Origin: Cyclobacteriaceae bacterium
Lineage (GTDB): Bacteria; Bacteroidota; Bacteroidia; Cytophagales; Cyclobacteriaceae
Length of the DNA: 55,403 nucleotides
Assembly (NCBI GenBank): GCA_020436085.1
Contig: JAGQYM010000029.1
Span: 1 to 55,403, forward strand
Reading direction: 5' to 3'
The notes beneath the pieces are model-generated. The model had not been told where the DNA came from, made no database searches, and saw only the letters and a list, made by a program, of their open reading frames with translations. The position numbers were made by a program, and so were the translations under genes. Positions 26,931-42,673 of the stretch are shown one piece after another. The stretch's first letter is position 1; each line of letters starts with the position of its first letter.

Positions 26931-26932
26931 GT
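26920..26932. repeat. Short palindrome across the htrA/dnaA convergent stop codons
   Basis: ACCTAC-A-GTAGGT spans the htrA TAG (26928-26930) and touches the dnaA TAA (26934-26932). It has no U run, so terminator function is uncertain. Confidence 0.35.
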
Positions 26933-28368
26933 TACGAAACCATTCTCAACTTCAGCTTCTTACTCAACTCATCTACTGAGTTTTTGAAGTTGGAGTCAGC
27001 TTTCATCATGTCCTCCACTGATTCAAGGGCATGAATCACGGTGCTGTGATCCCTTCCTCCGAAGTTTTCACCAATCAAAGCCAATGTCAGTTGAGTATAG
27101 CGCTTGCAGAAGTACATAGCCACCTGGCGTGGAATTACGATCTCGCGCTTTTTTACTTTGGCCTTCAAAGAATCGAGGCTTACTTTAAAATAATCTGCGA
27201 CCGTTTTTTGAATGAAATCTACACTGACATCAGACTGGATTTCTTTCACGATGTTTTTCAACACCTCCTTCGCAAGTTCAAGATCGATTTCTTTCTTCAG
27301 CAGCGTGGCGTGAAACATTAAAGAGTTCAGAACACCCTCCATGTCGCGCAGGTTGGTATCGACACTATAGGCCAGGTATTCGGCAACCTCCGTTGGTATG
27401 TCAATACCATCAGATTCCATTTTATTGTGGATGATGGCAAGCTTGGTTTCGAAATCGGGCTCTTGGAGATCGGCAGTGAGCCCCCACTTAAATCTGGACA
27501 ACAATCGCTCCTGGAACCCTTTGAGGTCACGTGGAGGACAATCACTGGTCATGATGATTTGTTTGCCCGATTGGTGTAACTGATTGAAGATATGGAAGAA
27601 CATTTCCTGCGTCTTCTCACGTCCCGCCAAAAACTGAACATCATCCAGGATCAACAGGTCGACCTGCAGATAAAAATTCTGGAAGTCCTGAAGTTTATGG
27701 TTTTGAAGTGCGTTCAGGAACTGGTTCGTAAAATCGTTTTGATCTACATACAATACGATCTTCTCAGGAAGATTCTTTTTGATTTCATTTCCGATTGACT
27801 GCACAAGGTGCGTCTTTCCCACTCCTACACCACCATAGAGCATCAGTGGGTTAAATGATGTGACACCGGGTTTCTTTGCCACGGCCACACCAGCAGATCT
27901 CGCCAATCTATTACAATCTCCTTCAACGAAGTTCTCAAACGTGTAATTGGGGTTGAGTCTTGAATTGACTGTTTGAGGATTGAGCGCTCTAAAACTAAAA
28001 GGAGAATAGTCATCAAGATTTCCATTCCCATTCTGAGGCTGAGTCCCGTTAGCGCGTTTCATTCCACCACCGTTGGGATAGTTCACCATCAATGGTGGGT
28101 TCTGATTGTTACCGCTGTCTACGATGACCGAGTACTCTAAGCGCCCTGAATCGCCTAAGACACCATGAACTGCCTTCTTAAGTACTGGCACATAATGTTC
28201 CTCAAGCCATTCGTAGAAGAATTGAGATGGCACTTGAATGGTAAGCACGCTGCCTTCTGTGCGTAACGGAACAATGGGCTTAAACCACGTGTTGAAATTT
28301 TGCTCGTCTACCTCCTTTCGAATAATCTCGAGACAGTCATTCCAAATGGTGCCGCTTTCAACTTCCAT
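26932..28368 (-). CDS. dnaA: Chromosomal replication initiator DnaA
   Basis: DnaA binds DnaA boxes at oriC and opens the duplex. The 478-residue protein has all four domains: domain I (WNDCLEIIRKEVDEQNFNTWFKPI, 9-32), a glycine/asparagine-rich linker (about 100-135), the AAA+ domain with Walker A GGVGVGKTHLVQSIG and Walker B LLILDDVQFLAG, and the C-terminal DNA-binding domain with GGRDHSTVIHAL. It is followed 1 bp away by the convergent htrA gene. Upstream is a 392-bp gene-free region with inverted repeats, but I found no good DnaA boxes there, so oriC location is not established. Confidence 0.97.
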   Translation of the reverse strand: MEVESGTIWNDCLEIIRKEVDEQNFNTWFKPIVPLRTEGSVLTIQVPSQFFYEWLEEHYVPVLKKAVHGVLGDSGRLEYSVIVDSGNNQNPPLMVNYPNGGGMKRANGTQPQNGNGNLDDYSPFSFRALNPQTVNSRLNPNYTFENFVEGDCNRLARSAGVAVAKKPGVTSFNPLMLYGGVGVGKTHLVQSIGNEIKKNLPEKIVLYVDQNDFTNQFLNALQNHKLQDFQNFYLQVDLLILDDVQFLAGREKTQEMFFHIFNQLHQSGKQIIMTSDCPPRDLKGFQERLLSRFKWGLTADLQEPDFETKLAIIHNKMESDGIDIPTEVAEYLAYSVDTNLRDMEGVLNSLMFHATLLKKEIDLELAKEVLKNIVKEIQSDVSVDFIQKTVADYFKVSLDSLKAKVKKREIVIPRQVAMYFCKRYTQLTLALIGENFGGRDHSTVIHALESVEDMMKADSNFKNSVDELSKKLKLRMVS

Positions 28369-28558
28369 TACAAGATCTAAAGTACCGTTGTGTTTGTTCT
28401 TCTTTGTTCCCGGTTAGGGAAAGGGAGACAAAGGTGTAAAAAAATCGAAGAACAAAAAACCGAAACGGCACTTGAATATTTGAAAAAATATTTTCGTGAC
28501 AACATCTAAAACCAAAGTAAAAAAATTGTATAAGTCCTAACTAAGATTCAACCCACGG

Positions 28559-28605
28559 GATCAATAGAATATTTTGTCTGCTTTCAATTAAATATTCTAT
28601 TGATC
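28559..28605. repeat. Inverted repeat 1: 16-bp perfect arms
   Basis: GATCAATAGAATATTT (28559-28574) and its exact complement AAATATTCTATTGATC (28590-28605) flank a 15-nt loop. No T run follows in either direction, so it does not look like a simple terminator. Confidence 0.85.
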
Positions 28606-28606
28606 T

Positions 28607-28639
28607 TGACGAATACTGATGGTACCATCAGTATTGTCA
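28607..28639. repeat. Inverted repeat 2: 24-bp perfect palindrome with paired flanks
   Basis: AATACTGATGGT (28612-28623) is followed directly by its complement ACCATCAGTATT (28624-28635). Outside it TGAC (28607-28610) and GTCA (28636-28639) also pair, leaving one bulged G at 28611. A spacer-free palindrome suits a dimeric DNA-binding protein or cruciform better than an RNA hairpin. Confidence 0.85.
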
Positions 28640-28673
28640 GGGTTTTAACCCAGACAAAGCGAAGCTTTCGTCT
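28640..28673. repeat. Inverted repeats 3 and 4, back to back
   Basis: GGGTT-TT-AACCC (28640-28651) is followed at once by AGAC-AAAGC-GAA-GCTTT-C-GTCT (28652-28673), a 9-bp stem with one bulged C and a GAA loop. AACCCA (28647-28652) can alternatively pair with TGGGTT (28708-28713), which would enclose repeats 4 and 5. Confidence 0.7.
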
Positions 28674-28683
28674 ACCTGTTGGG

Positions 28684-28709
28684 CAAATTATGCTCTAATG
28701 CATAATTTG
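28684..28709. repeat. Inverted repeat 5: 10-bp perfect arms
   Basis: CAAATTATGC (28684-28693) and GCATAATTTG (28700-28709) with loop TCTAAT. A sixth repeat, GGTTC (28710-28714) and GAACC (28723-28727) around the palindromic TCAATATTGA, follows directly. Confidence 0.8.
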
Positions 28710-28760
28710 GGTTCAATATTGAGAACCAGTCATTTAAAGCATCAGGTCAAAAATAAATTC

Positions 28761-29843
28761 ATGTCAGACGCTCTTTTTAATTCATTTCCAGGGAGTGACA
28801 AGAAGGCTTGGAAGGAAGCAGCACAAAAGGAGCTTTCGGGAAAGGACCCATTTACAGAATTAACATTTGAGACCGGGTCGATAACTCTCAAACCTTATTA
28901 TGATGAATCAGACACCGATGACTTACAGCCCGAAACACTTGATGTAGCTCAGGACATCTATTTGGGGCCACGAGGCTGGTTTAACACGCCTAAAATATTG
29001 GTTCAGGATGAAAGTGAGTCGAACAAAACTGCCCTTAACCACTTGAACAATGGCGCTGACGCTCTTCTTTTTGAAATCAACACGCCTGTTAGCCTTGACA
29101 AACTCTTTTCAGGAATTAACCTTCCTTACTGCGGTGTGTTCTTCATGGTCGATGCCGCACAATCAGCATTGATAACCGATTTCGAACAATATGTAAAGGG
29201 TAAACAAGTGGATACCTCGCAGTTAATTGGCGGATTTTTTTGGACCTCTCCTATTTCATCTAATATAGTTGCAAACTCAAATACCATAAAGCATTGGAAT
29301 CGATTCAATCCCCTTGGTATTGTAGTGAAACCGAACAGCGACCCGTCAGTAGAAATAGCGGAAGCTCTTTGGGAAGCTGCAACGGTAATAGCAGACACTG
29401 GTAAAGATTCAGTCTCCAAGATCTGTTTTTCAGTAAACACGGGCACTGACTTCTTTTCAGACATTGCCAAGCTCAAATGCCTTCGCAGGCTTTGGCAGCA
29501 AATTCAAGGTGCCTATAACGTAACTCAAACTCATTTGCATATTCATGGCATATCCTCGTCATGGACAGACGAAAAATATTCGCCTAATGGCAACATGATC
29601 AAAAGTACCACCTCAGCACTTAGCGCTGTTCTTGGTGGGTGTGATTCAATAACAGTAGAGTCCGAGGATGTCAAAAGTTCATTCAAAGAGCGTGTTGCAA
29701 GAAACGTATTAAATATTCTTCGCGAAGAGTCGAAACTTAATCAGCCAGCCGACCCAATTGCTGGCTCATACTTTCTCGAAGATTATATCGAGCAGCTTTC
29801 GCAAACTGCCTGGCAACGATTCCAAGATCTCGTAAAGTCATGA
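28761..29843 (+). CDS. mutA: Methylmalonyl-CoA mutase small (beta) subunit, short form
   Basis: The non-catalytic partner of the B12-dependent mutase that interconverts methylmalonyl-CoA and succinyl-CoA. I start at ATG 28761 ([31 protein letters not shown]), the family-like N-terminus; an ATG at 28698 adds 21 untypical residues inside an inverted repeat. The protein has 360 residues and covers only the TIM-barrel-like part, ending at [23 protein letters not shown]. The C-terminal cobalamin-binding-like domain of full-length small subunits (about 600 residues) is absent. It overlaps mutB by 4 nt (ATGA). Confidence 0.88.
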
Positions 29844-42577: not shown

Positions 42578-42599
42578 CAAGTCTTAGATTGAGGGGAAG

Positions 42600-42673
42600 T
42601 GGAGCATATCGGAGTCGAACCGATGACCTCTACAATGCCATTGTAGCGCTCTAGCCAGCTGAGCTAATGCCCC
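42600..42673 (-). tRNA. tRNA-Ala (anticodon GGC)
   Basis: A 74-nt cloverleaf on the minus strand. The acceptor stem GGGGCAT/ATGCTCC includes the G3-U70 pair that identifies tRNA-Ala. The anticodon stem CTACA/TGTAG closes the loop ATGGCAT, so the anticodon is GGC (codon GCC). The T arm contains GGTTCGACTCC. The discriminator is A, and CCA is not encoded. It is a lone tRNA gene with its own promoter. Confidence 0.96.

Follow-up and report, generated by a model that had tools for sequence, protein, structure and literature searches.

The hairpin array between dnaA and mutA in a Cyclobacteriaceae genome is very probably an old MITE copy with ends matching IS1380-family transposons

Dispersed palindromic repeats that lie between genes include REP/BIME, ERIC, RUP and bcr1, the last of which is associated with a 5-bp TTTAT duplication. 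The array of hairpins described here, situated between two genes presumed, as in a preliminary description of this DNA, to be dnaA and mutA, belongs to a family that is likewise dispersed, palindromic and intergenic and that differs from those repeats in its end sequences and partners. The array is very probably an old copy of a MITE, a kind of element that is already known, with ends matching those of IS1380-family transposons. Prokaryotic MITEs, as characterized in one review (PMC10969869), resemble the window's element in being short, gene-less and intergenic and in having terminal repeats, a target duplication and predicted stem-loop transcripts; unlike them, the window's element contains five separate, near-gapless hairpins with arms that differ between copies, and its family has ends that are common to several phyla and interiors that are not alike. 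MITECca01 of Cardinium is similarly a MITE thought to be maintained by an intact parental IS, but the parent is an IS982-family element and the MITE is reported from one Cardinium strain only (PMC9769881). MITEPye1 of Paracoccus yeei, a low-copy, mostly intergenic MITE with a predicted stem-loop RNA, differs in being related to IS1182 and in occupying another host group (PMC11578231).

The IS1380 family (NCBIfam NF033539, Pfam PF13701) shares with the window's element terminal repeats starting CCCA, 5-bp direct repeats and, in the IS1380-type elements of related genomes, the same target preference, whereas the element lacks a transposase gene, is 160 bp long rather than ~1.4 kb, and is similar to IS1380 members at its ends only. 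One member, IS1247, is listed with inverted repeats of 16/13 and direct repeats of 5 bp (PMC3281130). The papers that could be searched, which included few subscription titles and leave absence unproven, contained no report of an IS1380-derived MITE family or of a family with IS1380-type ends. The family is unusual in how widely its ends are shared, in the length that recurs among its members and in the hairpins that are exchanged within the window's lineage.

The window, by which we mean the whole stretch of 55,403 nucleotides analysed (contig C113 of a 4.42-Mb assembly, G000, comprising 191 contigs), had been described as containing six inverted repeats at 28559-28727, and all six are present in the sequence. 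Repeat 1 has 16-bp perfect arms (28559-28574/28590-28605), repeat 2 (28607-28639) has one bulge and contains 12-bp perfect arms (28612-28623/28624-28635), repeat 3 is GGGTTTTAACCC (28640-28651) and is followed by repeat 4 (28652-28673), repeat 5 has 10-bp arms (28684-28693/28700-28709), and repeat 6 (28710-28727) has GGTTC/GAACC arms. The 221-nt stretch 28540-28760 has a predicted fold of -72.6 kcal/mol on either strand, compared with shuffled means of -40.7 on the + strand (z -7.0) and -40.9 on the - strand (z -7.8), and none of 200 shuffles matched it on either strand, indicating that the hairpins are real and that the dnaA-mutA spacer does hold structure far beyond chance. The interior of the element, with 20 bases trimmed from each end, still folds with z -4.3.

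A search of the window's own genome with 28535-28735 returned 12 matches at E <= 10, including the further copies, on other contigs, that the preliminary description had suggested looking for: one on C22 (83% identity), one on C33 (82%) and one on C107 (78%), the remaining matches being weak or parts of the window's own palindromes. Comparison of the four copies with each other and with relatives placed the boundaries at CCC...GGG, outside which lies a 5-bp direct duplication. The window's copy is 160 bp long with TTCAA/TTCAA and encodes no gene of its own, the C22 copy has the same length (160 bp) with TTAAA/TTAAA, the C33 copy is 102 bp with TTAAA/TTAAA, and the C107 copy is 141 bp with TTTAA/TTTAA. 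The duplications are thus exact in four of four copies, those of C33 and C107 being weaker evidence because their boundaries were set by eye and, in C107, at ends degraded to CC/GG. With these boundaries (Table 1), the six repeats do not form one unit: repeats 1-5 fall inside the element, and repeat 6 lies mostly outside, being composed of the element's last two bases, the target duplication and flanking DNA. Likewise, AACCCA (28550-28555) and TGGGTT (28708-28713), proposed earlier as an alternative pairing, are indeed there; they are the two ends of the element, each extended by two bases of the target site. Although the left end of the window's copy is degraded, other family members have both terminal repeats.

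A relative with the same divergent dnaA-mutA pair, G025 (locus L248; a distant relative, with MutA 46% identical), contains the empty site GATTCAATATTG. Its spacer runs uninterrupted as AAAAAAATTGTATAAGTGTAAACTTAGATTCAATATTG, where the window has AAAAAAATTGTATAAGTCCTAACTAAGATTCAA (GATTCAA), the element and then TTCAATATTG, the last being the part of repeat 6 that is found in the uninterrupted site. The likely start of mutA in the window, the ATG at 28761, is 44 bases downstream of the right duplication, and the longest form of the ORF begins at 28698, within the element. We sought mutA in 60 genomes of the genus, found it in 53, and used 30 loci, the window's included; DnaA-like peptide motifs lie opposite mutA in 28 of these 30, again counting the window's own. 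Our script delimited the spacer in 21 of the 29 relatives' loci (nine of all 30 lacked a delimited spacer, two because no dnaA was seen and seven, the window's among them, because no mutA start was), and the end motif, allowing up to 4 mismatches, occurred in none of the 21, of which two (25 and 496 nt) are perhaps mis-delimited and in any of which a strongly degraded end would escape detection.

Table 1. Positions of the element, its parts and its neighbours in the window. The + strand of the element is the strand on which it was aligned to other copies and is otherwise arbitrary.
Feature	Position	Strand	Basis
dnaA, divergent neighbour	26932..28368	-	ORF list; DnaA-like peptide motifs
Left target site duplication, TTCAA	28547..28551	.	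Identical to 28712-28716; G025 has TTCAA once here
MITE copy, 160 bp, CCCACGGG...ATAATTTGGG	28552..28711	+	Ends and 5-bp duplication as in three own-genome copies and in elements elsewhere
Left terminal repeat, degraded: CCCACGGGATCAATAG, motif CCCARATTATGCAWTAG	28552..28567	+	Comparison with the motif
Hairpin 1, left terminal, 16-bp perfect arms	28559..28605	.	C22 and G024 copies have different arm sequences here
Hairpin 2, TGACGA-arm-loop-arm-TTGTCA, one bulged base	28607..28639	.	Arm covariation, 11 distinct 33-nt modules
Hairpin 3, central, GGGTTTTAACCC	28640..28651	.	Other copies have GGGTTTAACCC or GGGTTAACCC
Hairpin 4, AGACAAAGCGAAGCTTTCGTCT, one bulge	28652..28673	.	Mostly conserved in C22 and four G024 copies
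Hairpin 5, right terminal, contains most of the right terminal repeat	28684..28709	.	Sequence
Right terminal repeat, intact: CCCAAATTATGCATTAG (minus-strand reading)	28695..28711	-	Exact motif match; IS1380-type elements have the same ends
Right target site duplication, TTCAA	28712..28716	.	Identical to 28547-28551
Flank outside the element, outer part of repeat 6	28717..28727	.	Adjoining TTCAATATTG in the uninterrupted site of G025
mutA, neighbour	28761..29843	+	ORF list; relatives

The family extends well beyond this genome. The 201-base query matched 12 of 58 genomes, the window's own included, and many genomes, belonging to several phyla, contain the end motif CCCARATTATGCAWTAG. Preceded by AA and with up to 2 mismatches, the motif was present in 39 of 62 genomes of the genus, reaching counts of 168 in G024, 73 in G032 and 67 in G033; when the pattern was reversed as a control, 0 or 1 matches were obtained on each strand. 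Exact matching across genome records yielded at least 120 stretches, and the matches listed carry labels that include Bacteroidetes, Flavobacterium, Tenacibaculum, Helicobacteraceae, Sulfurimonas, Sulfurospirillum, Calditrichota, Chitinivibrionales and Opitutales; since many of these records are draft metagenome bins, an individual case could reflect contamination, and the labels are no tally of the distribution. From loci among the matches listed, we extracted at least 79 distinct elements with both ends, at least one of which is not a MITE (L110 is a piece of an IS, with 100 bases at 80% identity to L217). Exact 5-bp duplications flank 47 of the 79, compared with 15.8 on average and 31 at most in 20,000 re-pairings, although many of these elements are related and hence not independent; the other 32 lack an exact duplication. 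The left target is something other than TTAAA/TTTAA in 29 of the 79, and the duplication is exact in 15 of those 29. Complete elements with exact duplications come from records titled Chitinivibrionales, Tenacibaculum, Opitutales, Helicobacteraceae, Calditrichota and Sulfurimonas, among others. A search of plasmid and phage collections with a 170-bp stretch in distant mode gave no match, and the two stretches of viral contigs that contain the end motif held no complete element that our script could find. Elements L171, L106, L143, L174 and L182 (42, 53, 66, 74 and 74 bp) consist of little beyond the two ends, have exact 5-bp duplications and are possibly the smallest members of the family. A 183-bp member (L021/L142, TTCAA/TTCAA) abuts, as if inserted there, a transposase-like reading frame that we take to resemble IS1182.

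Among the end-motif loci in genome records and viral contigs, the search for long elements (0.7-8 kb) with both ends returned a single weak far end, and we therefore sought the partner by transposase family instead. We tried IS1380 because its members have ends beginning CC and make duplications of 4-5 bp. Pfam PF13701 matched in nine of 60 genomes of the genus, above the cut-off in six (G024, G033, G034, G035, G074 and G080); it had no match in the window's own genome, where no resident transposase of this family was therefore found. The PF13701 elements are ~1.4 kb long and have ends such as CCCAGATTATGCATTAG, CCCAGATTACGCATTAG and CCCAGATTTTGCAGTAG. In related genomes, both ends were identified in 17 distinct IS loci (hand count, allowing up to 5 mismatches), 13 of which have exact 5-bp duplications, among them TTTAT (L219), TTGAA (L231 and L234), ATGAA (L245) and GTGAA (L242), and four of which (L217, L222, L226 and L229) do not. 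The transposases of three partners had NCBIfam transpos_IS1380 scores of 267, 246 and 228 bits (cut-off 180) and passed the NCBIfam cut-off for IS1380 only, on which ground we rejected an origin from IS1634, IS4 or IS701.

Across the 60 genomes, end motifs had a median of 32 where PF13701 was above the cut-off (n=6) and of 1 elsewhere (rank test, p = 1.2e-4, after subtraction of 36 motifs for the IS copies of G080 itself, although its ~20 full-length copies would make 40 equally fair). In 22 further element-holding genomes from other lineages, IS1380 matches (E <= 0.001) occurred in eight, two of them over the cut-off. Ends matching those of the family lay beside the IS1380 matches in four of the eight (G085, G089, G092 and G101), and none were seen beside those in G087, G094, G095 and G100, of which G100 is over the cut-off. 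No PF13701 match was found in the motif-rich genomes G032 (73 motif matches) and G029 (18). Given these two genomes and the ends missing beside some matches, there is no strict link between the family and a transposase resident in the genome, although multicopy IS may drop out of draft assemblies. Together, the end motif, the duplication and the partner transposase allow unlabelled repeats in other genomes to be annotated.

The assignment of the array to a MITE thus draws, at the level of sequence, on the boundaries, the terminal motif, the 5-bp duplication, the uninterrupted site in G025, the other copies in the same genome and the IS1380-type counterparts, and of the proposals made in the preliminary description it is the small palindromic mobile element that fits the target duplications, the other copies and the empty site. 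In the mechanism we envisage, a full-length element would supply an IS1380-family transposase, which would bind the terminal repeats CCCARATTATGCAWTAG of the MITE, move the MITE as DNA and join it to TTCAA cut with a 5-bp stagger; repair of that cut would leave the TTCAA duplication. The IS1380 transposase is the likely mobilizer because elements encoding it carry the same ends and 5-bp duplications. A transposase outside IS1380 that also makes 5-bp duplications, as Tn3-type elements do, would accommodate G032 and G029, and we consider it improbable given that IS1380-type elements in several genomes share both the ends and the kind of duplication. The window's copy is probably an immobile fossil, given its degraded left end and the lack of a recognizable PF13701 transposase in its genome.

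The other proposals would give the array a function at this locus. If it regulated mutAB as a structured leader RNA or in the manner of a riboswitch, hairpins in the transcript would control expression, and the strong fold and the covariation of the arms (below) agree with such a role, as does the position of all four own-genome copies, each of which has a reading frame starting no more than 100 bases downstream (in the window, measured to the ATG at 28761). However, the array is bounded by target duplications, the site in G025 is uninterrupted, and the end motif is missing from the 21 delimited spacers of relatives. Searching Rfam with 28300-28900 down to E 10 gave five chance-level matches, all far below the gathering score, so that no known RNA family was identified. 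Nor is the family found in front of one gene or pathway: the 43 elements with enough flank, own copies included (8 more were dropped because their flanks were too short), lie in 24 tandem, 9 convergent and 7 divergent spacers, with 3 not assignable, and a dedicated leader RNA does not fit elements in all gene orientations. No bias in gene context was evident among the 43, none of which lies inside an ORF, weak evidence since insertion itself breaks the frame. We therefore regard the leader RNA as very improbable. A role as a multi-site dnaA operator or as an origin-related structure, suggested by the adjoining dnaA and the palindromes, is extremely improbable, because no end was found in the 21 delimited spacers of relatives, other copies sit on other contigs of the same genome, and the extremes of the window's cumulative GC skew fall near 1859 and 55359 and not at the array. 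The array is not a dedicated switch for the neighbouring genes, and a candidate regulatory RNA or origin element is replaced by a mobile-element explanation that can be tested. The hairpins are the interior of the window's MITE lineage; any role they have would most likely belong to the element's own life, for example in holding its ends together, or alternatively as a fold of single-stranded DNA or of read-through transcripts, and any effect on mutA or dnaA would be at most incidental.

Covarying arm substitutions, which the preliminary description had proposed looking for, were found for one hairpin of the window's lineage, hairpin 2, in which pairing is kept while the arms change. These substitutions, like the further copies in the genome, run against the refuting condition given in that description. 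The module of hairpin 2, TGAC(A/G)A...T(C/T)GTCA, has 38 distinct pattern matches, some of them due to chance. A one-base bulge stands at the same place in 14 of the 23 distinct matches of up to 37 nt; the other nine include three that pair fully or otherwise, with the bulge absent or different (the loci named being L030, L035, L038 and L039), three 24-nt sub-matches, one chance match elsewhere in the window and the unpaired module of C107. In a set of 11 distinct 33-nt modules, pairing holds for 92.9% of cells, compared with a shuffled mean of 87.3 (0 of 500 shuffles as high). Both sides change in four pairs (6 of 500 as high) and in nine cells (0 of 500), with a covariation score of 0.208 against a mean of 0.092 (0 of 500), whereas further pair types are unremarkable in number (94 of 500). 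These fractions, obtained with the poorly paired C107 module retained, are not probabilities, since the copies are related. When the partners were slid out of register, every measure of pairing and covariation dropped. The pairing could be maintained either by selection or by template-switch repair. Replication-linked repair of quasi-palindromes by template switching, which is compatible with the MITE explanation and bears only on why the hairpins persist, would keep the hairpins without selection, would likewise yield apparent covariation, and fits the wholesale replacement of arms with pairing retained; simple palindrome repair, however, should erase the bulge that is kept at the same place in those 14 matches. 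We consider such repair quite possible, leaning slightly against it.

Whether the interiors derive from an IS1380 element was addressed by blastn of the 79 elements and four genus elements against four IS from the genus. Matches were obtained for 79 of the 83 queries and, except for L110, extended over no more than 53 bases, with similarity at the ends only. Because these matches are short, the MITEs do not appear to be simple deletion products of the IS seen here, and "IS1380-ended" is a safer label than "derived by deletion". We clustered the interiors of 72 elements longer than 100 bp (from the matches listed) and of the window's own element after trimming 20 bases per end, which gave 20 clusters, and folded one representative of each. 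Whole representatives had z below -3 in 14 of 20 clusters (median -5.2), compared with one of 19 flanks; the trimmed interiors did so in six of 20 (median -1.8), compared with none of 19 flanks (median -0.1). A general hairpin rule is thus not established, since the folding of whole elements stems largely from their paired ends; hairpin-rich interiors occur in the window's lineage and some others, but not in all. A member of 160-170 bp is present in 10 of the 20 clusters and, in the window's cluster, is the window's own element. It is conceivable that the array is a selected architecture, in which elements sharing little but their IS1380-type ends converge on ~160-170 bp, with a hairpin-rich interior in at least several lineages, a structured spacer of that length being best suited to the IS1380 transposition complex or to a host factor; the window lineage's exchangeable hairpins would then be modules of the architecture. 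Having begun by rating this reading as doubtful, we now hold it to be unlikely, because only the six interiors fell below z -3. The exchanged arms with pairing kept and the length of ~165 bp raise the directly testable question of whether a DDE transposase favours short passengers that contain internal hairpins, or passengers of a set length.

Several further features of the family and the locus were observed. Two clusters, L096/L102 (164 and 205 bp) and L097/L113 (162-165 and 218-222 bp), each contain two sizes, as if one module had been gained or lost. Several longer elements of the window's lineage, such as L043 and L126, have at each end a hairpin made of the terminal repeat and its inverted copy, such that long elements of this type resemble two minimal elements flanking a core. 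Upstream of dnaA, at 28423-28444 in minus-strand reading, lies a conserved box, TTTTTTTACACCTTTGTCTCCC, which is possibly a promoter or leader element of dnaA. When up to 3 mismatches were allowed, its core, CACCTTTGTCTCCC, was present with 0-2 mismatches in all 28 loci that have dnaA, the window's own among them, and is retained even though the adjacent MutA is only about 35-47% identical; in many loci the core is preceded by TTTTTTGTTCTTC. The only tRNA found in the window is a tRNA-Ala (GGC anticodon) at 42599-42673 on the minus strand.
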